In this document: one piece after another, positions 15,106 to 25,711 of the stretch | How the letters are laid out: the number at the start of each line of letters is the position of its first letter | Numbering within the stretch: the stretch's first letter is position 1 | Assembly: GCF_035989285.1 (NCBI RefSeq) | Contig: NZ_CP108513.1 | Location: 6,200,001-6,264,000, forward strand | Reading direction: 5' to 3' | Source of the DNA: Streptomyces sp. NBC_01235 | GTDB lineage: Bacteria > Actinomycetota > Actinomycetes > Streptomycetales > Streptomycetaceae | DNA length: 64,000 nt | Program-made: the position numbers and the translations under genes | The notes under the pieces: model-generated | Database searches by the model: none | What the model was told of the DNA's origin: nothing | What the model saw: the letters and a program-made list of their open reading frames with translations, nothing else

Positions 15106-16360
15106 GACCCACGAGACGCGGAGGCCGTTGCCGGGCATACGAGCGCTGTTGCCGGGTGTGCGGCGAGCCGCCGCCCGGATCGACGCCGGCACGCCCCCGC
15201 AGCGCGACCGGGCCGTGGACGCCCTGCGCGCGTTCGCCGTCCTGGGCGTCGTCCTCGGCCACTGGCTGGTGACGGCCCTGGTCGCGGACGGCAACACCCT
15301 GCGCGCCGCGAGCCCCCTCGGCCCCATGCCCTGGCTCGCCCCCGTGTCCTGGATGTTCCAGACGCTTGCGGTGTTCTTCATGGTGGGTGGCCACGTGGCG
15401 ACCCGCAGCCTCGCCTCGGCACGGGAACGGGAACCAGGCGGGACGCGCGGGACCTACTTCAGGTGGCTGCGGGCGCGCCTGGCCCGGCTGTTCGGGCCGG
15501 TGGTGGCCGTACTGGCGGTGTGGACGGTCGGCGTGGTCGGTCTCCTGCTGGGCGGCGCATCCTTCGTCACCGTGCACACCGTGGTCAAACTGGCGTTGTC
15601 CCCCCTCTGGTTCCTGCTGGTCTTCGCCGCGCTGACGGCCGCGACCCCGCTGCTGGTCCGGCTCAACCCGCTGTGGCCGCTGGCCGTCGTCCTCCATGTG
15701 GACCTGGTGCGTTTCGGCCTGGGCGGCCCGTCGTGGCTGGGCTGGGTGAACGTGGCGGCGGGCTGGCTGGTGCCGTACACGGTGGGCGCGGCCTGGACCC
15801 GGGGCGAGCTGGAGCGCCCGCGCGCGGGCTGGATCCTGTTCGCCGGCGGGGCGGTGACGACGGCGCTGCTGGTCGGCTTCGCCGGCTACCCGGCGTCGAT
15901 GGTGGGCGTGCCCGGCGCGGCGGTCTCCAACCTCAACCCGCCGACGCTGGCCGCCGTCACCTTCGGGCTCGCCCAGTGCGGACTGGCCCTGCTGCTGCGC
16001 GACCGGCTGCGTCGGGCCATGCGCCGGCCCCTGGCCTGGGCGGCGGTGGCGCTGGTGAACCTCTCCGCGATGACGGTGTTCCTCTGGCACCAGACGGCCA
16101 TGATGGCGACCACCGCGACGGGTCTCTTCGTCGGCCGCCTGCCCGGCCTGCACACGGTTCCCGACGGGCTGGACTGGGTGGCTGCCCGGCTGCTGTGGCT
16201 GCCGGTCTTCGCCCTGATGCTGGGGGTGTGCTGGGCGGCGTTCCACGGCTTCGAGAGCGGCGGAGGGCGGCGCGTGCGGAGGGAGCCGGGTGGGTCACGA
16301 GTGGTACGTGTCGGACCCCGTGGGAAAACGCCGGGGCTGCGGGAGACCCCGCATGTCTAG
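15098..16360 (+). CDS. Acyltransferase 3 family membrane protein
   Basis: A 420-residue integral membrane protein with about ten hydrophobic helices. The family motif is at residues 36-54 (DALRAFAVLGVVLGHWLV) with the conserved His, followed by WMFQTLAVFFMVGGHVATRS. Such enzymes O-acetylate or otherwise acylate sugars, peptidoglycan or antibiotics at the membrane. It overlaps the upstream hydrolase by 8 nt (ATGCCTGA) and the histidine kinase downstream by 8 nt. The C-terminal 35 residues are basic and cytoplasmic. The substrate cannot be told. Confidence 0.85.
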   Translation: MPETHETRRPLPGIRALLPGVRRAAARIDAGTPPQRDRAVDALRAFAVLGVVLGHWLVTALVADGNTLRAASPLGPMPWLAPVSWMFQTLAVFFMVGGHVATRSLASAREREPGGTRGTYFRWLRARLARLFGPVVAVLAVWTVGVVGLLLGGASFVTVHTVVKLALSPLWFLLVFAALTAATPLLVRLNPLWPLAVVLHVDLVRFGLGGPSWLGWVNVAAGWLVPYTVGAAWTRGELERPRAGWILFAGGAVTTALLVGFAGYPASMVGVPGAAVSNLNPPTLAAVTFGLAQCGLALLLRDRLRRAMRRPLAWAAVALVNLSAMTVFLWHQTAMMATTATGLFVGRLPGLHTVPDGLDWVAARLLWLPVFALMLGVCWAAFHGFESGGGRRVRREPGGSRVVRVGPRGKTPGLRETPHV

Positions 16361-17759
16361 GGTGGTGCGGATGAACGGCGTGGGGGAGTGGCTGGCCAGG
16401 TGGCTGCGGGCACTGCGGGACGACCTGTGGACGACCCGGGCAGCACCGCTGCCGCCGCTCGTCTGGCTGCGCCGACTGCCGCACGGGCATGTGATCCTGG
16501 TCGGTATCGGCATCACGCTGACCAGCGCGGCTCAGATCATCGACGAATATCACCAGGGCGCGAACTACGCCGTGCTGTGCTCCGTGGCGCAGGGTGCGGC
16601 GGTGGCGCTGGCCCTGTGGCGGCCGGTTCCGGCGTGGTGGCTGTCGACGACGGTCGCGGTGCTCGTGGCCATGGGTGCCCGCTCCCAACTGTTTTCGGGC
16701 CAGGCCGAGCCCGATGCCTCCTGGCCCTGGGGCGCACCCGCCCTGATCGCACAGGCCGTGGTGCTGCTCCTGCTGTCGCTGCGCGTGCCCACCGCCGCGT
16801 CCGTGGCGGCGCTGGGCCTGACCGCGCTGGTCACCTTCATCATGGAAGGGGTAATCGGCGCAGCCGGCTACACGCCGACCGGCCCCATGGCGGTGATCGT
16901 GTTCACCGCCGTGGTCCTCCTCGGCATCGCCGTGCGCGGCCGCCGCGAGGCCCGCACCCAGCTCGTCGAGCAGGAGACGATCACCGCCGAGGAACGCGCC
17001 CGCCGCACGCTGCTGGAGGAGCGCAACCGGATCGCGCGCGAACTGCACGACGTGGTCGCCCACCACATGTCGGTGATCTCCATCCAGGCCCAAGTGGCCC
17101 CGCACCTGGTGGAGAACCCGTCCGAGGAGCTCAAGGAGAACCTCGCCGGCATCCGGCAGAACGCTCTGGAGGCGCTCGCCGAACTGCGCCGGGTGCTCGG
17201 CGTGCTGCGTTCGGAGAACCCCGAGGATCCCTACGGTCTCGGCGCGGCCGGCACCGGACACGCCCCGGACACCCCGCAGCCCACGCTGGACCGCCTCGGC
17301 GCCCTGATGGAGAACACCCGCGCCGCGGGGCTGGACGTGGTCACCACCGTCGAGGGCGAGGCACCCGTGTATCCGCCGGGCGTGCAGTTGTCGGCGTACC
17401 GGATAGTCCAGGAGGCGCTGAGCAACGCCCTGCGGCACGCGCCGGGTTCCCAGGTGCGCGTGGAGGTCACCCACCACGCCCGGGGCCTGCACCTGGAGGT
17501 CGTCAACTCCCGCCCGAGCGCACCCGTACGGTCTTCCCCCAAAGCGGGCCACGGCCTGCTCGGCATGCGGGAGCGGGCGGCGATGCTGGGCGGCCACGTC
17601 AGCGCGTACCCGACCCTGCACGGCGGCTTCGCGGTGCAGGCGTTCCTCCCGAGGGACGGCGTGGCGACACCCCCCGACCGCTCCGACGATCTCGACCCTC
17701 CCGAGGGCCTCGAACTCGTCTTCCCGGACGACCTCCCGACAGCAGAAGGAAACCGATGA
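16353..17759 (+). CDS. NarL-type sensor histidine kinase (first of two paralogues)
   Basis: A 468-residue membrane kinase. Residues 45-200 hold five or six hydrophobic segments, so the sensor is membrane-embedded. The HisKA_3 dimerisation box is LLEERNRIARELHDVVAHHM with the phospho-acceptor His232. The ATPase domain includes SAYRIVQEALSNALRHA (N box) and GHGLLGMRERAAMLGG (G box). ATG at 16353 is chosen because GGGAG lies at 16341-16345 and the start overlaps the acyltransferase stop by 8 nt; ATG 16371 is possible. The response-regulator gene overlaps its stop by 4 nt. The signal is unknown, possibly envelope stress given the upstream enzymes. Confidence 0.9.
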   Translation: MSRVVRMNGVGEWLARWLRALRDDLWTTRAAPLPPLVWLRRLPHGHVILVGIGITLTSAAQIIDEYHQGANYAVLCSVAQGAAVALALWRPVPAWWLSTTVAVLVAMGARSQLFSGQAEPDASWPWGAPALIAQAVVLLLLSLRVPTAASVAALGLTALVTFIMEGVIGAAGYTPTGPMAVIVFTAVVLLGIAVRGRREARTQLVEQETITAEERARRTLLEERNRIARELHDVVAHHMSVISIQAQVAPHLVENPSEELKENLAGIRQNALEALAELRRVLGVLRSENPEDPYGLGAAGTGHAPDTPQPTLDRLGALMENTRAAGLDVVTTVEGEAPVYPPGVQLSAYRIVQEALSNALRHAPGSQVRVEVTHHARGLHLEVVNSRPSAPVRSSPKAGHGLLGMRERAAMLGGHVSAYPTLHGGFAVQAFLPRDGVATPPDRSDDLDPPEGLELVFPDDLPTAEGNR

Positions 17760-18433
17760 CGACCGGCGGCACCATCCGCGTACTGATCGCCGACGACCAG
17801 CAGATGGTCCGGCAGGGCTTCACCGTGCTGCTCAACGCGCACCCGGGCATCGAGGTGATCGGACAGGCGGTGGACGGCCTGGACGCCGTCGCGAAGGTCG
17901 ACGAACTCGCCCCGGACGTCGTCCTGATGGACATCCGCATGCCCGAGCTGAGCGGCATCGACGCCACGCACCGCATCACCCTCGCGCACCCCCACATCAA
18001 GGTGCTGGTGCTCACCACCTTCGACCTCGACGAGTACGTGTACGACGCGCTGCGGGCCGGGGCGTCCGGGTTCCTGCTGAAGGACGCCTCCGCGGACCAG
18101 CTCGCCGAGGCGGTCAGGGTGGTGGCGGCCGGCGACGCCCTGCTCGCGCCCGGTATCACCCGAAAGCTGATCGCCGAGTTCTCCCGCCTCGAGGGCAAGC
18201 CCAGAGCCCCGCTGAAGGAGCGGGTCGGCGATCTCACCGAGCGCGAGACGGAGGTGCTCACCCTCATCGCGCAGGGCCTGTCCAACGCGGAGATCGCGGG
18301 CCACCTCTTCGTCGCCGAGCAGACCGTGAAGACGCACGTGGGCCGCATCCTGGTGAAGCTGGGCCTGCGGGACCGCACCCAGGCGGCGGTGTTCGCATAC
18401 GAGTCGGGGCTGGTGAGACCGTCGGGCTACTGA
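17756..18433 (+). CDS. NarL/LuxR-type response regulator, partner of the first kinase
   Basis: A 225-residue regulator. The receiver domain is 1-125 with the phospho-acceptor Asp59 in VVLMDIRMPE, the acidic pocket ADDQ and the Lys in FLLKDA. A LuxR helix-turn-helix lies at 160-218 (LTERETEVLTLIAQGLSNAEIAGHLFVAEQTVKTHV). AGAAGGA at 17744-17750 serves as ribosome site and the ATG overlaps the kinase stop (ATGA). It is about 65% like the second regulator by eye, so cross-talk or a duplication is likely. Confidence 0.93.
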   Translation: MTTGGTIRVLIADDQQMVRQGFTVLLNAHPGIEVIGQAVDGLDAVAKVDELAPDVVLMDIRMPELSGIDATHRITLAHPHIKVLVLTTFDLDEYVYDALRAGASGFLLKDASADQLAEAVRVVAAGDALLAPGITRKLIAEFSRLEGKPRAPLKERVGDLTERETEVLTLIAQGLSNAEIAGHLFVAEQTVKTHVGRILVKLGLRDRTQAAVFAYESGLVRPSGY

Positions 18434-18497
18434 CCGGCGTCTCCCTCTGTGGCCGTTGTGGCCCACGTGGGGGCTCCCTGTGGTGGCTCCCTGTGGG

Positions 18498-18515
18498 ACC
18501 CGTAGTACTTGAGAC
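18498..18515 (+). promoter_or_regulatory. Shared 18-bp motif / promoter element, copy 2
   Basis: ACCCGTAGTACTTGAGAC lies 65 bp upstream of the second kinase start and matches copy 1 at 13942-13959 in 15 of 18 positions. It may be a regulator site or a TAGTAC-type -10 element. Confidence 0.4.
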
Positions 18516-18579
18516 GGAGCCGTGGGAACCCCTCTCACTGGTGACGACGGGTGCCCCGGCTGCGCCTACCGTTTTGAAC

Positions 18580-19956
18580 GTGACCGAGACGACGCAGACG
18601 CACACCACGCACCGGGACGACCCGGCCGACTCCTTCGAGGCCTACCGGCCGCGCAGCCCGGAGTTCCGGGCGGCCGTGGACGCCCTGCGCGGCATGCGGC
18701 AGGACCTGTTCCACGACGCCTTCGCCTACCGTCCGCTGCCCCGCAAGGAGCCCACCGGCCTCCTCGCGCGCATCGCGAAGGGCCGCAGGCGGGAGTACGC
18801 GGCCTGGTCCCGGCACGCGATCGTCGGTGCGGGCGGCGTGCTGGCGATGCTGATCGGCTACGCGGACGACGGCGGGGGTCTGCTGGGAGCCGTGATCGGC
18901 CTGCTCGTCCTGGCGCCGGTGCTGATGACGCTGGTGCGGCCGGTCGGCGCGTTCTGGTTGTCCCTCGCGTCGACCACGGCGGTGGCCCTGGTCGGCACGA
19001 CCTACGGCAACTGGCCGTGGCTGCCCGGCAGTTTCCTCTCCCACCTGGTGGTCCTGACGGTCGTGGCGATACGCACCCGCCCGCGCACGGCGGCGTGGAT
19101 GTGGCTGCTGACGGGGGCCTACGGCTTCGTCGCCGAGACCGTCTTCGGCTGGGGCCACTACGACACGAACATCGCGCCCATGCTGGTGTTCTCTGCGATC
19201 CTCCTGCTCGTCGTCACCGTCTGGCACATACGCAGGGATGCCGAGCAGGAGGTGACGGCCCAGCAGACGGTGACCGCGCACGAGCGCTCCCGGCGCACCC
19301 TGCTGGAGGAGCGCACCACGATCGCCCGCGAGCTGCACGACGTGGTCGCGCACCACATGTCGGTGGTGGCCATCCAGGCGGAGGCCGCCCCCTACCGGGT
19401 GGAGAACCCGCCGCCGGAGCTGGAGAAGGCCTTCGCGACCATCCGGGAGAACGCGGTGGCGGCGCTCACGGAGCTGCGCCGGGTGCTGGGCGTGGTCCGC
19501 GCCGAGGACTACGAGGTCCCCGACGCCCCGCAGCCCACCCTCGCCGAGCTGGACGCGCTGCTCGCCAACGTGCGGGAGGCCGGCCTGGACGTGGAGAAGG
19601 GGGTCACGGGCGCGGTGCGCGAACTGCCGCAGGGTGTGGAGCTGTCGGCGTACCGGATAGTCCAGGAGGCGCTGAGCAACACGCTCCGCCACGCACCCGG
19701 GGCGAGCGCCCGCGTGGAGGTCGGGTACGTCCTCGGCGGCCTGGGCCTGCGCATAGTCAACGGCCCGCCACCTAACCCCTCGCTGATCAAGCCCTCACCC
19801 GGAGCCGGCCACGGCATCACGGGCATGCGGGAGCGGGTCACGATGCTGAACGGCGAGATGACGGCGGAACGGACACAGGAGGGAGGCTATGAGGTGACGG
19901 TGTTCCTGCCGGTGCCGATGGCTTCCGTTTCTTCTCCCGACGAGGGTGGGGCATGA
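18580..19956 (+). CDS. NarL-type sensor histidine kinase (second paralogue)
   Basis: A 458-residue kinase. A soluble N-terminal stretch of about 75 residues precedes five or so membrane segments (80-215). The HisKA_3 box TIARELHDVVAHHM carries His253; SAYRIVQEALSNTLRHA and GHGITGMRERVTMLNG are the ATP-binding boxes. GTG at 18580 is chosen because TACCGT at 18567-18572 stands 7 nt before it and there is no Shine-Dalgarno, giving a leaderless start; upstream in-frame codons reach back to 18493. The regulator gene overlaps its stop by 4 nt. The N-terminal cytoplasmic extension is absent in the first kinase. Confidence 0.9.
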   Translation: MTETTQTHTTHRDDPADSFEAYRPRSPEFRAAVDALRGMRQDLFHDAFAYRPLPRKEPTGLLARIAKGRRREYAAWSRHAIVGAGGVLAMLIGYADDGGGLLGAVIGLLVLAPVLMTLVRPVGAFWLSLASTTAVALVGTTYGNWPWLPGSFLSHLVVLTVVAIRTRPRTAAWMWLLTGAYGFVAETVFGWGHYDTNIAPMLVFSAILLLVVTVWHIRRDAEQEVTAQQTVTAHERSRRTLLEERTTIARELHDVVAHHMSVVAIQAEAAPYRVENPPPELEKAFATIRENAVAALTELRRVLGVVRAEDYEVPDAPQPTLAELDALLANVREAGLDVEKGVTGAVRELPQGVELSAYRIVQEALSNTLRHAPGASARVEVGYVLGGLGLRIVNGPPPNPSLIKPSPGAGHGITGMRERVTMLNGEMTAERTQEGGYEVTVFLPVPMASVSSPDEGGA

Positions 19957-20618
19957 CGATCCGCGTACTGATAGCGGACGACCAGATGATGGTGCGCGAG
20001 GGCTTCTCGGTCCTGCTCAACGCGATGCCGGACATCGAGGTGGTGGGGGAGGCGGTCAACGGCCGGGAGGCGGTGGACCGGGTCCGTGAATTGACCCCCG
20101 ACGTGGTCCTGATGGACATCCGCATGCCGGAGCTGAACGGCATCGAGGCGACGCGCGAGATCGTGGCGGCGGACGGCGCGGCGAAGGTCCTGGTCCTGAC
20201 CACCTTCGACCTGGACGAGTACGTCTACCAGGCGCTCCGCGCAGGAGCCTCGGGCTTCCTCCTGAAGGACGCCTCGGCCCGCCAACTGGCGGACGGAGTC
20301 CGGGTGGTGGCGGCGGGTGAAGCCCTCCTGGCCCCCTCGGTCACCAAGCGCCTGATCACGGAGTTCTCGAAGCTGTCCGACACCCCGCGGCTGTCGCCGA
20401 CCGCCCAGGCGGCGTACGGCGACCTGACCGAACGGGAGACGGAGGTACTGGTCCTGATCGCCCAGGGCCTGTCGAACCTGGAGATAGCCGGACGCCTGGT
20501 GGTGGCGGAGTCGACCATCAAGACCCACGTGAGCCGCATCCTGGTGAAGCTGGGCCTGCGGGACCGCACCCAGGCGGCGGTGTTCGCGTACGAGGCGAGG
20601 CTGGTGACGCCGGGCTGA
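19953..20618 (+). CDS. NarL/LuxR-type response regulator, partner of the second kinase
   Basis: A 221-residue two-domain regulator. It has phospho-acceptor Asp55 (VVLMDIRMPELNG), the conserved Lys in FLLKDAS, and the LuxR DNA-binding helix pair at 155-214 (LTERETEVLVLIAQGLSNLEIAGRLVVAESTIKTHV). The start overlaps the kinase stop (ATGA). The recognition helix differs from the first regulator at only a few positions (AESTIKTHVSR versus AEQTVKTHVGR), so their target sites should be similar. Confidence 0.93.
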   Translation: MTIRVLIADDQMMVREGFSVLLNAMPDIEVVGEAVNGREAVDRVRELTPDVVLMDIRMPELNGIEATREIVAADGAAKVLVLTTFDLDEYVYQALRAGASGFLLKDASARQLADGVRVVAAGEALLAPSVTKRLITEFSKLSDTPRLSPTAQAAYGDLTERETEVLVLIAQGLSNLEIAGRLVVAESTIKTHVSRILVKLGLRDRTQAAVFAYEARLVTPG

Positions 20619-20638
20619 CCTCTGAAGGCGACCCCTAT

Positions 20639-20667
20639 TTGAACGCGTTCAATTCTGTGGCAGGATG
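20639..20667 (+). promoter_or_regulatory. Promoter with 14-bp perfect palindrome over the -35 region
   Basis: TTGAACGCGTTCAA (20639-20652) is a perfect palindrome. Its left half TTGAAC can serve as a -35 box, with CAGGAT (20661-20666) as a -10 box at 16-nt spacing. A repressor bound there would block the small membrane-protein genes that follow. No regulator gene for it is adjacent. Confidence 0.55.
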
Positions 20668-20697
20668 CTGCTGTGTCCGTCACGGAGGGGGAGCGGC

Positions 20698-20898
20698 ATG
20701 GGGTCAGGCGCAAGCATCATCATCGTGCCGTTCATGTTCTACGTCGCCTTGATGCTGCCGTTCTGCGTGAAGGTCGCACAAGCGTCGTCCGCGAGGGTGG
20801 GCTGGATGATGGCCGCGGTCCTCATCTTCTCCCCACTCGCTCTGCTTGTTGCCGCCGGCGTCCCCTGGAGCCTGTCTCCTGCTGACCCGTTCGCGTGA
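20698..20898 (+). CDS. Small two-helix membrane protein
   Basis: A 66-residue protein with two hydrophobic segments (residues 6-25 and 35-57). CGGAGGGGGA at 20683-20692 gives a good ribosome site for the ATG at 20698, and an operator-like palindrome is upstream. The next small membrane-protein gene starts 4 bp after its stop, so they form a pair. No family is recognised; they could be an accessory pair of membrane sensors or an immunity-type unit. Confidence 0.55.
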   Translation: MGSGASIIIVPFMFYVALMLPFCVKVAQASSARVGWMMAAVLIFSPLALLVAAGVPWSLSPADPFA

Positions 20899-20902
20899 CC
20901 CG

Positions 20903-21196
20903 ATGAGTAGCTTTGCGGCAGCCGGACTTGGGGGAACGATGGCCTTCGGTGAACTCTTGACGCTTGTGCTCCTTGCCATGGCGGTTCTGTTGGTGACCGG
21001 TGTCTGGCTCGGTGGCTACGCCCTGATCCGCAACCGGGTGCCGGGGCGATGGCTCGGCAGAACGGTACGCAACCCCAGACTTTGGGGAACCGGCCTGCTG
21101 TTCATGGTCTCCAGCTTGGCCTTCGTCTCCTGGACGCCCTTCGTCCTCGGGCTCGGGATCACCATCACCGGACACGCCGTCAAGCCCACCGGGTGA
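20903..21196 (+). CDS. Small membrane protein, partner of the preceding gene
   Basis: A 97-residue protein (85 if the ATG at 20939 is used). Hydrophobic segments lie at about 15-37 (LTLVLLAMAVLLVTGVWLGGYAL) and 62-85 (GLLFMVSSLAFVSWTPFVLGLGI). The ATG at 20903 sits 4 bp after the upstream stop, which fits translational coupling; the inner ATG has only a close GGGGGAA. The last third of this gene is duplicated at 23645-23757, where it is joined to an unrelated sequence. Family unknown. Confidence 0.5.
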   Translation: MSSFAAAGLGGTMAFGELLTLVLLAMAVLLVTGVWLGGYALIRNRVPGRWLGRTVRNPRLWGTGLLFMVSSLAFVSWTPFVLGLGITITGHAVKPTG

Positions 21197-21323
21197 CCCG
21201 GGCTCGTCAGTCACGCGACGTGTCACGCGACGGCACCAGCGCCGTCGGGGCGGGTCGAAAGGACAGGCCTCAGGCCCGAGGGCCGAGGTTCAGGTACGCG
21301 TCCGGCGGCAGAAGCGGTTCGGG
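21084..21323. repeat. Long direct repeat flanking the lectin gene, left copy
   Basis: 240 bp match 23645-23885 with only scattered differences and one 1-nt indel. The left copy holds the end of the small membrane gene (to 21196), a gap, and on the minus strand only the last codons (21270-21323) of the gene that is complete at 23832-24110. So the left copy carries a truncated relic of that minus-strand gene. Confidence 0.95.
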
Positions 21324-21330
21324 TCGACTT

Positions 21331-21356
21331 CGCCGGTGTCGTGGTCGACACCGGCG
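21331..21356. terminator. Bidirectional hairpin downstream of the lectin gene
   Basis: An 11-bp perfect inverted repeat, 21331-21341 with 21346-21356, has a 4-nt loop. A second 13-bp perfect inverted repeat, 21358-21370 with 21397-21409, lies next to it. Both sit between convergent genes and can stop transcription from either side. Confidence 0.65.
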
Positions 21357-21439
21357 CCGAGGTACTCGGCTGGGCCTGGGAGCGCGCGCCAGTCATGCCG
21401 AGTACCTCGTCGTCCCCGAGACCCAGGTGGTGCCTCCGC

Positions 21440-23305
21440 CTACTTGAGCGCTTTACCACCCGAGTTGTTGTAGGCGATCGTCTTGTTGATCAGGTTTCCG
21501 CCGTCGGTCTCGACCGATGTCTGTTCCTGCTGCCCTGCACCGAACAGCAGGCCGGCGATGTGCGCGTTCGCCACTTGGTCCATGTGCGCGAAGAACCAGT
21601 CCACCTTGTCGTCCTTGTAATGGTTGAGGGTGTTGTTCTGCGCCATGTTGCCTACGGGGATCTGCCACAAGACCACCGGCTTGCCCACGGACTCGGCCAT
21701 CGTCTTGTAGAACCCCAGCGAGGCAGCGGCCTTCTGGTCAGTCCAGAAGTTGTCATAGCCGCCGTGGGCCGACTGTGCGTACCAGCCTGCATCGCGGTCC
21801 GACACATCGGCGACCAGGAAGTCGGCGTTCTGTGCACCGAGGTTCGCGTAGTCCTTGGCGCATCCCTGCATGTTGTTCTGCCAGTCCCAGCAGGAAAGGT
21901 GGAACCCCACGGTGGTGTTCGGCGCGTATTTGTGCGCCATGTCGATCAGGCAGCGGGAGAGTCCGGCGGCGCTGTTCTCCTGCGATCCGCAATCCGTCGG
22001 ATTTGCGCTCGAGACCTTCGCGGCAACCTTGTGCGGATCGCCGAGCGACCGGACATAGCCCCAGAAGTCGGGCTCAAGGTCGATCATGTCCTGCGAGTTG
22101 CCGATCTTCTGGAGGAAGAAGCGGTAGTCGTTCATGTACCGGGTGAGCAGGTCAGCCCTGTTGATGGCCTCGACCTCGCCCGGACCGTCGCCATGGCCTG
22201 CCAGATCCCCGAGGTCGCGCAATGAGTACCAGGTCCAGAAGAACTTCTGCGGGCGCGGGCTGCCCTTGTAAGTCGCCTTGGCCACATGGTCGTCCGACCA
22301 GGTCACGTAATAGCCAGGCGGCGTGGTGCTGCCGGACCAGCAGCCCCACCAGTTCTTCCACGCATCCTGGCATTTCGATGCCGAGTAGTAGTCCGACGAG
22401 GGCGCGGGCTGGCTGTGCACATAGGCGTACCGCACGTCGAACGGCGCGGCGTTCGCCGAGGCGTCAGACATCGAGCCGCCGATGAGTACCTTGCTGCTAC
22501 CCATGAAACTCGTCGTCGAGCTGCCGCCACCGGCCGCGGGAGACGACGCCGGCGACGGGCTCGTGCCGCTCGGAGCCTGGCTCTTGGGAACACTGCCGCC
22601 CGTCGCGGTGGGCTTGGGCGTGGGCGTGCCGGCGCTGCCGACGCTCCCGGCCGGGACGAGTTGCCACTGCTGATTGGCGCCGCCCCCGTCGCGGTACTGG
22701 ACGACCTCGCCCCCGTCGGCCTTGGAGGCGTTGTGGACCTCGACGGCCATGCCACTGAAGCGATTGATCAAACGCACGTAGCCGTCCGGCGACTCCGCCA
22801 GTTTGAACTGCTGGTTGGTGCCGTTCCGGTCGCTCCACTGCACGATCTCGGAGCCGGCGGTCTTCGACCAGTTGTGGTCGTCCAGCACCTTGCCGGAGTT
22901 CCGGTTCTGCAGCCGGTAGTACCCGTCACCCGCGTCGATGAACCGCCACTGCTGGTTGGCCCCGCCGTGACGGCCCCACTGCACCACCGCCGCGCCGTTG
23001 TTCGTGGCGAAGCCGCGGCCATCCAGCACCTTGCCGCTGTTGCGGTTGACCAGCACGTACCACGACTTCGGATCCACGGTTCCCGCTGAGGCCGTGTTGA
23101 CCACAACCACGGAGCCGGCCACGACAGCCATGACGATGGCCGCCCAGACACTCCGACGCGCGAACAACCGACGGGCACGATGCATCACATTTCGTCTGCC
23201 CGTGACGGCTGAGCCGGACGAGCGGCGACTACCGCGGGCGCGGCCGCGCGGCACGGCGGCCACCAGAGCGGTACGCCACCGATGACGTGGACGGGCGTGG
23301 GACAT
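21440..23305 (-). CDS. Secreted ricin-type lectin protein with C-terminal hydrolase-like domain
   Basis: A 621-residue protein from ATG at 23305 (ATG at 23185 would give 581). A hydrophobic export signal ends at residues 70-75 with the cleavage-like NTASAG. Residues 80-205 form a ricin B (beta-trefoil) carbohydrate-binding domain with three repeats ending GGANQQW, GTNQQF and GGANQQW. A Ser/Pro/Gly/Thr linker follows (206-245). The C-terminal 370 residues look like a TIM-barrel enzyme: FFWTWYSLRDLGDL, DLEPDFWGYV, VGFHLSCWDW, ADFLVADVSDRD and KPVVLWQIP. I infer a glycan-acting enzyme but no glycoside hydrolase family is recognised. It lies alone on the minus strand between 240-bp direct repeats, so it was probably inserted. 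Confidence 0.8.
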   Translation of the reverse strand: MSHARPRHRWRTALVAAVPRGRARGSRRSSGSAVTGRRNVMHRARRLFARRSVWAAIVMAVVAGSVVVVNTASAGTVDPKSWYVLVNRNSGKVLDGRGFATNNGAAVVQWGRHGGANQQWRFIDAGDGYYRLQNRNSGKVLDDHNWSKTAGSEIVQWSDRNGTNQQFKLAESPDGYVRLINRFSGMAVEVHNASKADGGEVVQYRDGGGANQQWQLVPAGSVGSAGTPTPKPTATGGSVPKSQAPSGTSPSPASSPAAGGGSSTTSFMGSSKVLIGGSMSDASANAAPFDVRYAYVHSQPAPSSDYYSASKCQDAWKNWWGCWSGSTTPPGYYVTWSDDHVAKATYKGSPRPQKFFWTWYSLRDLGDLAGHGDGPGEVEAINRADLLTRYMNDYRFFLQKIGNSQDMIDLEPDFWGYVRSLGDPHKVAAKVSSANPTDCGSQENSAAGLSRCLIDMAHKYAPNTTVGFHLSCWDWQNNMQGCAKDYANLGAQNADFLVADVSDRDAGWYAQSAHGGYDNFWTDQKAAASLGFYKTMAESVGKPVVLWQIPVGNMAQNNTLNHYKDDKVDWFFAHMDQVANAHIAGLLFGAGQQEQTSVETDGGNLINKTIAYNNSGGKALK

Positions 23306-23644
23306 GTCTGTGCTCTCTTTCAGCCGTTGCATCTGACCGAACCACCTGGTCGGACAACACCCAGTGGTCCGGGGAGGCCGAAAAGGTTGCCGCGCACGCG
23401 AAGATTCACAGATTTCTTTTCCGCCCTGATGGCTTCCCGTTCGCCGCGGAGCGCGGCACGGCGAACGCCGGCGGTGGCGGAAGCCTGATGGCTGCTCCCG
23501 TCCCTGCCGCTCACGTCGCGCACCGCGAACCACGCCCGCCACTGGACGTTCCCGCGGACGAGGGGCGGGCGGCGGAGATCGCGGAGCGGTCGGGGGTGAC
23601 GTTGGTGCGGCTGACGGCTGGGCCGAGGAGGTCGCGCAGGAGTG
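23306..23644. other. Region upstream of the lectin gene, no intact gene
   Basis: The first part should hold the promoter of the lectin gene (an AT-richer patch near 23400-23430). The rest is an open + frame whose codons (AAPVPAAHVAHR... to GPRRSRRSG) run in frame into the right copy of the direct repeat, so it reads as a chimeric leftover rather than a gene. Confidence 0.5.
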
Positions 23645-23885
23645 GGGGAACCGGCCTGCTGTTCATGGTCTCCAGCTTGGCCTTCGTCTCCTGGACGCCC
23701 TTCGTCCTCGGGCTCGGGATCACTGTGACCGGACACGTCGTCAAGCCCACCGGGTGACCCGGGCTCGTCAGTCAGGCGAACGTGTCACGCGACGGCACCA
23801 GCGCCGTCGGGGCGGGTCGAAAGGACAGGCCTCAGGCCCGAGGGCCGAGGTTCAGGTACGCGTCCGGCGGCTGAAGCAGTTCGGG
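23645..23885. repeat. Long direct repeat flanking the lectin gene, right copy
   Basis: 241 bp matching 21084-21323. It contains the last 36 codons of the small membrane gene (ending 23757) without its 5' part, and the intact 3' end of the minus-strand gene 23832-24110. Confidence 0.95.
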
Positions 23886-24110
23886 ATGCTCCACCGGGTA
23901 CCGCTCCCCGTGCAGCCTCAGCATCGCCCAGTGCCAGGCCTCGTCATGGAAGACGAGGCCACGGTACGGCTCGTCGCCCGGTTCGTAGGGGTAGCAGTCC
24001 AAGGCTGCCGCCCAGGACTCCGCGAGCGACATGCCTCCGTACCGCCGCATGACCCACGCGTAGGCGCGGCGCTCGCTCAGCAGGTACGCGAGGTACTCGT
24101 CCTCGTTCAG
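23832..24110 (-). CDS. Conserved small protein coupled to DUF397 gene
   Basis: Up to 92 residues if a CTG start (24110-24108) overlapping the DUF397 stop as CTGA is used; the first ATG (24050) would give 72. The reading frame from the CTG looks coding (NEDEYLAYLLSERRAYAWVMRRYGG), and such stop-start overlaps occur in the same operon. The protein is rich in Tyr, Trp and acidic residues and has the phrase FHDEAWHWAMLRLHGERYP. No family recognised. Its 3' end is duplicated in the left direct repeat at 21270-21323. Confidence 0.55.
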   Translation of the reverse strand: MNEDEYLAYLLSERRAYAWVMRRYGGMSLAESWAAALDCYPYEPGDEPYRGLVFHDEAWHWAMLRLHGERYPVEHPELLQPPDAYLNLGPRA

Positions 24111-24283
24111 AACTGCTGGATGAAGGCGCGCCAGCCTTCACGGGAGACGGTGAGGAGAGGTCCGTGCGGCTGCTTGCTGTCGCGGACGGCACGGCCGCCG
24201 GTGGCTGTGTCGGCGACCTCAACGCAGTTGCCTTCTCCTGCGGAGTAGGACGACTTCCAGAAGGAGCCCACAACCTCGGTCAC
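24107..24283 (-). CDS. DUF397 family protein
   Basis: A 58-residue protein beginning with GTG at 24283. The DUF397 pattern is clear: FWKSSYSAGEGNCVEVAD, AVRDSKQPHGP, and WRAFIQQF at the end. These proteins almost always follow an XRE/DUF5753 regulator in Streptomyces, for example in WhiJ/BldB-type developmental loci. Here the start overlaps the stop of such a gene (GTGA), but that upstream gene is only a fragment. It is too short for most automatic listings. Confidence 0.85.
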   Translation of the reverse strand: MTEVVGSFWKSSYSAGEGNCVEVADTATGGRAVRDSKQPHGPLLTVSREGWRAFIQQF

Positions 24284-24422
24284 GATGTGTCTTCCTTAGT
24301 CTTCCGCAGTACGTCCCGGATGAGCCTCATGCTCGCGTCCGGTGCCAACGCCGCTGATCGTAGTAGGTCGTAGACGTTGCCGTAAGCCGCAAGGTCTTCG
24401 GGTGCCTCGAGGACCGAAGTGC
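24280..24422 (-). pseudogene. 3' remnant of an XRE/DUF5753 regulator
   Basis: The minus-strand frame encodes about 47 residues ending KTKEDTS. They match the C-terminal end of DUF5753 regulators (SVLEAPEDLAAYGNVYDLLRSAALAPDASMRLIRDVLR in pieces). The N-terminal helix-turn-helix and most of DUF5753 are missing; the frame stops making sense at about 24422, where a remnant of an oppositely oriented gene begins. So the regulator lost its 5' part by deletion. Confidence 0.8.
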
Positions 24423-24796
24423 CCCCTCAGTCGCCCGGAACCAGGTCCGGAAGGCCCTCGCGGACTGGGGGATCACCGACGACCTTGCCGACAGCGTCAC
24501 CCTCTCGGCGAACGAGTTCGTGACCAACGCGGTGACCCACTGTCAGGTGTCCTGTGCGCAGGTCAGGGTCACCCTCACGCTTCCAGGGGCCGTATCTGTT
24601 CCTGGAGGTCTACGACCCGGACCGGGACAGGCTCCCCGAGCCCCGCGACTGCGCCCCGGACGACGAGGGCGGACGCGGACTCGCGCTCGTCGGGCGGCTG
24701 GCCGGTGCCTGGAGGCACGCTCAGCAGCGGCACACGAAGTGCGTGTGGGCCCGGTTCACGCTCCCGGAGAGGGCGCATGTTCCGGCGGATTCATGA
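24421..24796 (+). pseudogene. Truncated, frameshifted anti-sigma-type ATP-binding protein
   Basis: In one frame 24421-24585 reads as the middle of an HATPase_c/RsbW-like protein (VRKALADWGITDDLADSV, LSANEFVTNAVTHC, VRVTLTL). The sequence then continues in another frame from about 24578 to the stop at 24796 (GPYLFLEVYDPDRDRLPEP, DEGGRGLALVGRLAGAW, KCVWARFTLPER). A one-base shift near 24580 and loss of the 5' end explain this. The family normally carries an N-box Asn (EFVTNAVTH) and a G2 box (GRGLALV), both visible. It lies head-to-head with the XRE remnant, the usual divergent arrangement in Streptomyces, with the shared 5' region deleted. Confidence 0.8.
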
Positions 24797-25070
24797 GGCG
24801 CTCGCCAGGCTGCGGCACAGGCGCGGACCCGTCCCGCCCGACTGGGACGCGGCCCGGGAGGTGCGGTCGCCGGATTTTTACGTGGGGCGACTCCCGGACC
24901 CCCGCGATGCCCGCTGGCGCCGCTGGGCCAAGCGCAACCGAGCGGCCGGCCACTCCCTGCCCTTCCCGAGGGAGGATGCGTGTCGGCAAGCCCCCGGGCG
25001 TCCCCGGATCACCTCCTGGGAAGCCGCCGCCACCGACGACGTAGTACGGCCGTACGTGCTCAGGCCCTGA
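24777..25070 (+). CDS. Small basic hypothetical protein
   Basis: A 97-residue Arg-rich protein starting MFRRIHEALARLRHRRGP, with PPDWDAAREVRSPDFYVGRLPDPRDARWRRWAKRN in the middle. GGAGA at 24766-24770 is 6 nt before the ATG. It overlaps the 3' end of the ATP-binding pseudogene by 20 nt. I have a memory of this type of protein following such ATP-binding genes in Streptomyces but know no function. It may survive as an orphan of the damaged locus. Confidence 0.55.
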   Translation: MFRRIHEALARLRHRRGPVPPDWDAAREVRSPDFYVGRLPDPRDARWRRWAKRNRAAGHSLPFPREDACRQAPGRPRITSWEAAATDDVVRPYVLRP

Positions 25071-25081
25071 CCGCCGCGGCC

Positions 25082-25612
25082 TCAGAAAGGCAGAGAGAGC
25101 AGCCGCGCGGGTCCTCCTCCGGCGGGCCACTCCGCACCTTCGGTGAGCGGTGTCCACATGTGGCGCAGGGGCATGGTGACCGGGCCGTCGGGCTGTTCGG
25201 CCTCGATGTCGCCGTCCAGGGGCCGCCATCCGAGGCGTTCGTAGAGCGGGATCAGGCGGGGCCAGCAGAAGAGGAGTCCGAGTTCCGCCTCCGTACCGCG
25301 GGCGTGGTCCGTCGCGGCCGTCACGACCAGCCGCGCCAGCCCGCTTCCCCGCAGGCCGGGCGCCACGACGACACCCCCGAGCCCGGCCACGGGCAGCGAG
25401 CGACCGCCGAGCGACACCGTCGCCTGTATGAGCCCGGCGTGCGCCACGAGCCGGCCGTGCTGCCGGACGCCGAAGTGAATGTCCTTGTCCCGCCAGGTCA
25501 GTCCGGTCACGGCGACTCCGGCGGGATCGTCCGCACCACCGGTGATCTCGTGCCGCTCGGCCTTCGTGTACTGCGCGAGCCGTACGACGGAGGGAGCGCT
25601 GCTCTCGTTCAT
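25082..25612 (-). CDS. GNAT family N-acetyltransferase
   Basis: A 176-residue acetyltransferase. The acetyl-CoA binding region reads VAGLGGVVVAPGLRGSGLARLVV (a variant of the Q/RxxGxG/A loop), followed by LGLLFCWPRLIPLYERLGWRPL, typical of the C-terminal GNAT motif. The substrate is unknown. ATG at 25612 is chosen over an upstream ATG at 25636 because the gene-like sequence begins there; neither has a clear ribosome site. Its 5' end faces the P450 gene, leaving about 100 bp for two divergent promoters. Confidence 0.85.
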   Translation of the reverse strand: MNESSAPSVVRLAQYTKAERHEITGGADDPAGVAVTGLTWRDKDIHFGVRQHGRLVAHAGLIQATVSLGGRSLPVAGLGGVVVAPGLRGSGLARLVVTAATDHARGTEAELGLLFCWPRLIPLYERLGWRPLDGDIEAEQPDGPVTMPLRHMWTPLTEGAEWPAGGGPARLLSLPF

Positions 25613-25711
25613 CCGTCGATCATCACCGATCATCACCGATCCCTTGCGACCGGGTGTCCGCTCCCCAAGACCCCCTGGTCAGCACCCCGTATGTCGGGCT
25701 AGCGTCCGGTC

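Follow-up and report, generated by a model that had tools for sequence, protein, structure and literature searches.

We analysed a stretch of 64,000 nucleotides (the window) from Streptomyces sp. NBC_01235, corresponding to positions 6,200,001 to 6,264,000 of a single 11,090,044-base contig, in which a pair of direct repeats encloses a gene for a secreted protein with a lectin domain. A first-pass annotation had described two nearly identical 240-bp copies, each composed of the terminal parts of two convergent genes, one for a small membrane protein and the other on the minus strand, with the intact membrane gene on the left and the intact minus-strand gene on the right; alignment and gene map bore out this description. 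The left copy (R-left, 21084-21323 of the window, 240 bp) and the right copy of the same junction (R-right, 23645-23885, 241 bp) match at 233 of 241 aligned positions, with seven substitutions and one 1-base indel, and their longest shared perfect runs measure 92 and 79 bases. Each copy contains the last 113 nt, including the stop codon, of the plus-strand membrane-protein gene, here called mem2, followed by 74 nt of intergenic DNA and the terminal 54 nt of the convergent small-protein gene min92. The outer copies of both genes are whole and the inner copies are truncated: mem2 is complete on the left only (20903-21196, plus strand; its homologues begin at 20939) and min92 on the right only (23832 to approximately 24107, minus strand; start codon uncertain). 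A genome-wide search (11.09 Mb) found R-left and R-right as the sole two copies. With positions 20640-21323 as query, the repeat was absent from 198 other Streptomyces genomes, 12 of which gave weak partial matches of at most 64.4 bits; the genome sets searched here and below contained one genome per species.

The differences between the two copies were read against homologous proteins. At these positions mem2 homologues read ITVTGHAVKPTG. Within the mem2 part, all eight relatives printed have V where R-left has I, and seven of the eight have A where R-right has V, so that the I of R-left and the V of R-right are each derived. Within the min92 part, the close relative P0023 reads PELLQPPD as R-right does, which places both changes on R-left. 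Derived changes on both sides are what one ancestral junction, duplicated and then drifting, would leave behind, and these comparisons support descent of R-left and R-right from a single junction of two gene ends. Five of the eight differences lie in two spots, 21163-21166 and 21214-21218, where R-left forms a better short tandem repeat than R-right; we take these clusters, which improve short neighbouring repeats in R-left, as local mutation.

The DNA between the repeats consists of three unrelated pieces, which abut each other and the repeats within a few bases. The first-pass annotation had called this segment a lectin gene plus junk; it was right that the insert is foreign, but all three pieces proved identifiable. 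The leftmost (21326-21432, approximately 107 bp, plus strand) is a decayed stretch of the ADH_N part of an NADP-dependent oxidoreductase gene, with a frameshift and an internal gap. It matches an annotated NADP-dependent oxidoreductase gene on a Streptomyces plasmid (75% over 81 bp, E 1e-5) and a second gene annotated likewise in Nocardia. A tblastn search with an oxidoreductase protein recovered the fragment as two pieces in different frames, at 27.3 bits versus at most 20.4 in 60 base-shuffles, and no second copy was found in the strain's own genome. A 60-bp likeness of this stretch to another site in the genome was discarded, as it aligns with an unrelated coding region, which we take to be that of carbamoyl-phosphate synthase. 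The fragment also holds two strong hairpins at 21331-21410, with perfect stems of 11 and 13 bp; their reading as a terminator of the lectin-domain gene was set aside, as other species have a different hairpin directly after that gene.

The middle piece (21430-23561, approximately 2.13 kb, minus strand) has DNA homologues in other species that comprise the same lectin-domain gene together with the DNA upstream of it. This homology ends 8-13 bases past the stop codon, its upstream limit lies at 23561-23564 at most, and there is no counterpart here of the hairpin seen downstream of the gene in most other loci printed. The third piece (23564-23643, minus strand) amends the earlier statement that no transposase is present, while the accompanying statement that there is no integrase stands: these 80 bp derive from within an ISL3-family transposase gene. 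Six Streptomyces plasmid records contain a match spanning exactly these 80 bp at 87.5-92.5% identity; two of the six are annotated as ISL3 family transposase, and the intact gene from one plasmid record encodes a Pfam DDE_Tnp_ISL3 domain. R-right starts two bases beyond the fragment. Coming from inside the transposase gene, this piece does not represent a transposon end, and the window contains no intact copy of this ISL3 element. Several unrelated fragments are thus joined end to end without element ends, a pattern taken as a sign of end joining, which later trimming could mimic.

The secreted protein itself (gene at 21440-23305, minus strand; hereafter the enzyme gene) combines a ricin-type lectin domain (residues approximately 81-217) with a predicted (beta/alpha)8 glycosidase-like domain (residues approximately 261-621), as judged from Pfam, homologues, and a structural model with structure comparison. 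The lectin domain, of the CBM13 type, scored above the curated cut-offs (122.9 bits versus 25.6 for RicinB_lectin_2; 56.3 versus 29 for Ricin_B_lectin). The C-terminal domain had no glycosidase match in Pfam or NCBIfam, and the PDB sequence matches listed fall mostly in the lectin part; it is predicted from the model to be a clan-A-like glycosidase barrel. Folding the catalytic domain alone did not improve the model, and no enzyme family was assigned; the structure comparison covered a set list of families. The gene is widespread in the genus, and its product joins the lectin domain to the predicted enzyme domain and is not a stand-alone lectin.

The first-pass annotation had suggested looking for the same lectin gene elsewhere, and it was found at 93% DNA identity in genomes G387 and G260. 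The sensor kinase and regulator genes of these two genomes are 81% and 80% identical to those of the window. Ranking by these core genes in 11 chosen genomes placed G013 (90%), G286 (86%), G107 (86%), G022 (84%) and G020 (83%) nearest to the window, and all five gave only partial matches to the enzyme gene. The gene is present at 84-87% identity in G350, G146 and G193 (core identity 81-82%) and missing from G084 (81%). Because the gene is 93% identical in genomes with distant core genes and lacking in the five nearest tested, it is, on this sequence evidence, a horizontal acquisition. A common downstream neighbourhood was seen at 35 of 57 other enzyme-gene loci; the flanks of the gene in the window resemble none of the 57 on either side.

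Direct repeats of at least 80 bp between the 3-kb flanks of the enzyme gene were present in three of 56 loci tested, the window included (two others were too short). Apart from the window these are L063, where the repeat consists of 85 bp from upstream of the gene itself, and L083, with repeats of 941, 167 and 84 bp, where a RICIN-GH62 gene copy also occurs; at L099 an inverted repeat of 1.3 kb is present. The repeat of the window was in none of the other enzyme-gene loci tested. In both L083 and L099 the neighbours of the enzyme gene include duplicated genes; of the copies in L083, one is a RICIN-GH62 arabinofuranosidase gene according to Pfam, and the copies in L099 look alike by sequence. 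These duplicated neighbours hint at a role in plant polysaccharide breakdown. In G193 the gene after a mem2 relative is convergent with it and encodes a ricin domain; its product is a different protein, and the resemblance was counted as a coincidence.

The two genes that meet in the repeat differ in abundance. For mem2, only 17 related proteins were found among 5.8 billion, the best 92% identical; none of its relatives occurred in the viral contigs searched. For min92 there were 140 related proteins, in a family common in Streptomyces and without a Pfam match. DNA relatives of min92 (72-74%) occur on three large Streptomyces plasmids (H26-H28). Part of mem2 matches weakly (59 bp, 78%, E 7e-3) a place annotated as a site-specific integrase on a plasmid of S. 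cellulosae, a faint hint that mem2, though not the insert, may have come from a mobile element. At the protein level, 34 of 391 other genomes had mem2 matches at E 1e-3 or better (best identity 61%, in G107), and among 392 genomes of completeness at least 99, a largely overlapping set, 19 had matches at E 1e-10 or better, one of them new (G445). At the DNA level, mem2 was followed by the min92 end in none of the loci of G107, G193 and G084. The loci of the mem2 homologues nearest in sequence, P0001-P0013 (65-92%; S. lydicamycinicus has one such homologue), lie outside this comparison.

The first-pass annotation had expected that loss of the insert would restore an ancestral locus at 20903-24110; this locus, with the repeats and their insert, is itself part of a wider accessory block (20620-25660), located between a LuxR-type response regulator gene (19953-20618, plus strand; Response_reg and GerE in Pfam) as conserved left flank and a cytochrome P450 gene (25712-26929, plus strand; PF00067) as conserved right flank. 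In 37 relatives we measured the gap between regulator and P450, taken between match edges, over approximately 1.5 kb beyond the regulator. P450 followed within this distance in 29 of them, with a gap below 600 bp in 27, of approximately 1.26 kb in G084 and of approximately 1.46 kb in G286, compared with 5.1 kb in the window; in the other eight, P450 was not seen in the stretch examined. Within these limits the block is absent in 36 of the 37 relatives and partly present in G286. Homology to the relatives resumes at approximately 25657-25665, upstream of the P450 gene.

Apart from the genes already named, the block contains mem1 (20698-20898, plus strand), an open reading frame for a small membrane protein without a Pfam match above cut-off, and, to the right of min92, a DUF397 gene (24107-24283, minus strand; PF04149, E 1e-18). 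Next to it lies a mostly deleted remnant (24284-24430, minus strand) of the gene that follows DUF397 elsewhere, presumably an XRE regulator. Then come a piece of a histidine-kinase-like ATPase gene (24430-24950, plus strand) and a GNAT acetyltransferase gene (25082-25636, minus strand; PF13527 and PF00583). The frame of the ATPase piece is broken; it was recognised by homologues and by HATPase_c_2 matches in two frames (E 1e-5 and 0.026), both below the curated cut-off. Between the remnant and the ATPase piece, 16 of 19 relatives' loci have approximately 0.9-1.0 kb more DNA. G286 shows the order regulator, min92 (minus strand, nine bases on), an unrelated reading frame, pieces of DUF397 and its following gene, and P450; mem1, mem2 and the enzyme gene are not in this locus. 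This arrangement implies that min92 and the DUF397 remnants predate the split from G286, and mem1, mem2 and the mosaic were either added in the lineage of the window or lost in G286. The unrelated reading frame of G286 lies in approximately 0.73 kb (L173, 5639-6370) placed exactly at the min92/DUF397 joint (24108/24110 in the window), suggesting that DNA was gained or lost at one and the same point in two lineages. Among the matches listed, none spans both min92 and DUF397, so that even this pair appears to be a patchwork. Left of the block, two adjacent sensor kinase/regulator pairs (16290-20618) have regulators that are 75% identical; they are an old tandem duplication, shared with relatives.

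We consider it probable that a foreign mosaic was captured here by an event that was not site-specific and that duplicated its target (insertion-duplication), and that the locus then decayed. As read from the repeats, the ancestor had mem2 and min92 in convergent orientation with one copy of the 240-bp junction. Foreign fragments would have become linked on one side to a left end that ran as far as 21323 of the original sequence and on the other to a right end that began at 21084, whereby the overlap was doubled; the duplication thus would have arisen in the same event as the insertion, as we infer. Three routes could lead to this result: end joining, in which foreign fragments were linked to two broken ends that shared 240 bp or more; template switching, with a replication fork departing at 21323 and resuming at 21084; or a single recombination of a circularised molecule holding the junction with the chromosome. 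Given insertion-duplication, end joining or template switching has close to an even chance of being the route, and a circle with a single crossover is a serious but lesser candidate. The mosaic nature of the insert somewhat favours end joining; a mosaic could also stem from the donor or from later deletions. R-left and R-right have since diverged, and the redundant inner gene halves would have been lost while the intact outer genes were kept. Since the inner gene copies are truncated, the duplication may once have been longer, and 240 bp is a minimum.

Several observations weigh against insertion-duplication. mem2 joined directly to min92 was not found in the sets of 198, 391 and 392 other genomes, the last two largely overlapping, and the ancestral state is consequently deduced from the repeats alone. 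No donor with the same mosaic was found; assembly of the pieces may have taken place much earlier in a donor, or trimming may have shaped them later. Two intergenic differences between R-left and R-right could not be assigned to either copy. Finally, the repeat lies in the middle part of the chromosome, where, according to passages of a study of Streptomyces genomes, indels are rarer than in the arms (PMC6722414).

Of the alternatives, the Campbell-type integration put forward in the first-pass annotation fares best, and it coincides with one route inside insertion-duplication: the mosaic and the 240 bp would have resided on a circle that recombined once with the chromosome. We regard it as a realistic candidate, though with less than an even chance. 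The map is exactly that given by a single crossover, with the complete shared stretch on both sides and the intact genes outside, but the same map would result from end joining, template switching or an eroded longer duplication. A precedent exists in part of a study of Escherichia coli, in which linear DNA with one homologous end was mostly recircularised and integrated, leaving duplications of 109-950 bp (PMC3240628), and a full-length relative of the enzyme gene resides on a 737-kb Streptomyces plasmid. However, the match to this plasmid is limited to the gene region, and the donor would already have needed the rare mem2/min92 junction beside the mosaic, while a tblastn search for mem2 had no match in 72,556 plasmid records.

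Recombination with DNA of a related strain that carried the enzyme gene beside mem2 and min92, homologous on one side and illegitimate on the other, seems improbable. Such events are documented, and a divergence of 3% between the copies would suit alleles from two strains; yet the derived changes on both copies need no second allele, and no donor was found. Still less credit is due to transposition or site-specific integration with the 240 bp as attachment sites. Direct repeats do surround the insert and the ISL3 fragment abuts one of them, but that fragment is an internal 80 bp of a transposase gene, there is no integrase gene and the window contains no tRNA gene, phage records gave no match to the accessory block, the 240 bp are coding ends of two host genes, and the arrangement occurred in no other locus tested. 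Separate acquisition of the two copies, or gene conversion as the cause of their likeness, is very unlikely, since they are the only two in the genome and both have the same junction of a rare gene and another gene.

A more specific form of insertion-duplication would have single genes reaching the middle of Streptomyces chromosomes as part of small composites, put together end to end in the cell from sheared fragments of several sources and inserted with duplication of the target; we consider this unlikely, though worth stating. If it is true, the locus would be a fossil of the entry of a single gene into the middle of the chromosome without a mobile-element enzyme, and the repeat-flanked cassette would be reversible, the gene still being losable by recombination between the repeats. 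In either form the locus is a known kind of event and part of ordinary genome flux, and it is instructive: most small gene insertions in Streptomyces show no visible trace of their route of arrival. At this locus, the doubled target and the identifiable scraps on either side of the gene keep a record of how the event was put together, so that the two broad routes, a single crossover with a circle or the joining of broken ends, are separable in principle.

Our literature searches on repeat-flanked gene insertions in Streptomyces gave nothing closer than the systems compared below, and we make no claim beyond these searches. Homology-facilitated illegitimate recombination, as described in parts of a study of immunity arrays of the type VI secretion system (PMC5361080), similarly leaves a new gene beside retained ends of the old genes with one illegitimate joint; unlike at the locus described here, where the target is duplicated, it typically deletes the target. 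In Streptomyces, passages of one study report several sets of end-joining genes, with an effect on DNA acquisition suggested by the authors (PMC5124664), and passages of another describe genus-level insertions via end joining and indel hot spots (PMC6722414). These indels without conjugative elements resemble the locus in that small sets of genes lie between conserved genes and end joining is proposed as their source; they differ in that the passages of these two papers do not describe a target duplication of the present kind. The insertion-duplications obtained by conjugation in E. coli are reported in a part of the study cited above (PMC3240628): 56 of 60 clones in which illegitimate integration was expected gave the duplication-diagnostic polymerase chain reaction product, with duplications of 109-950 bp in the 14 that were sequenced, for which its authors proposed trimming and recircularisation followed by one crossover. 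In that system the donor and the event are known, whereas at the present locus the circle is hypothetical, the insert is made up of several pieces and its flanking copies have drifted apart. Common to both are direct repeats of host sequence around foreign DNA (109-950 bp in E. coli, 240 bp here) and an insert that brings no recombinase of its own.

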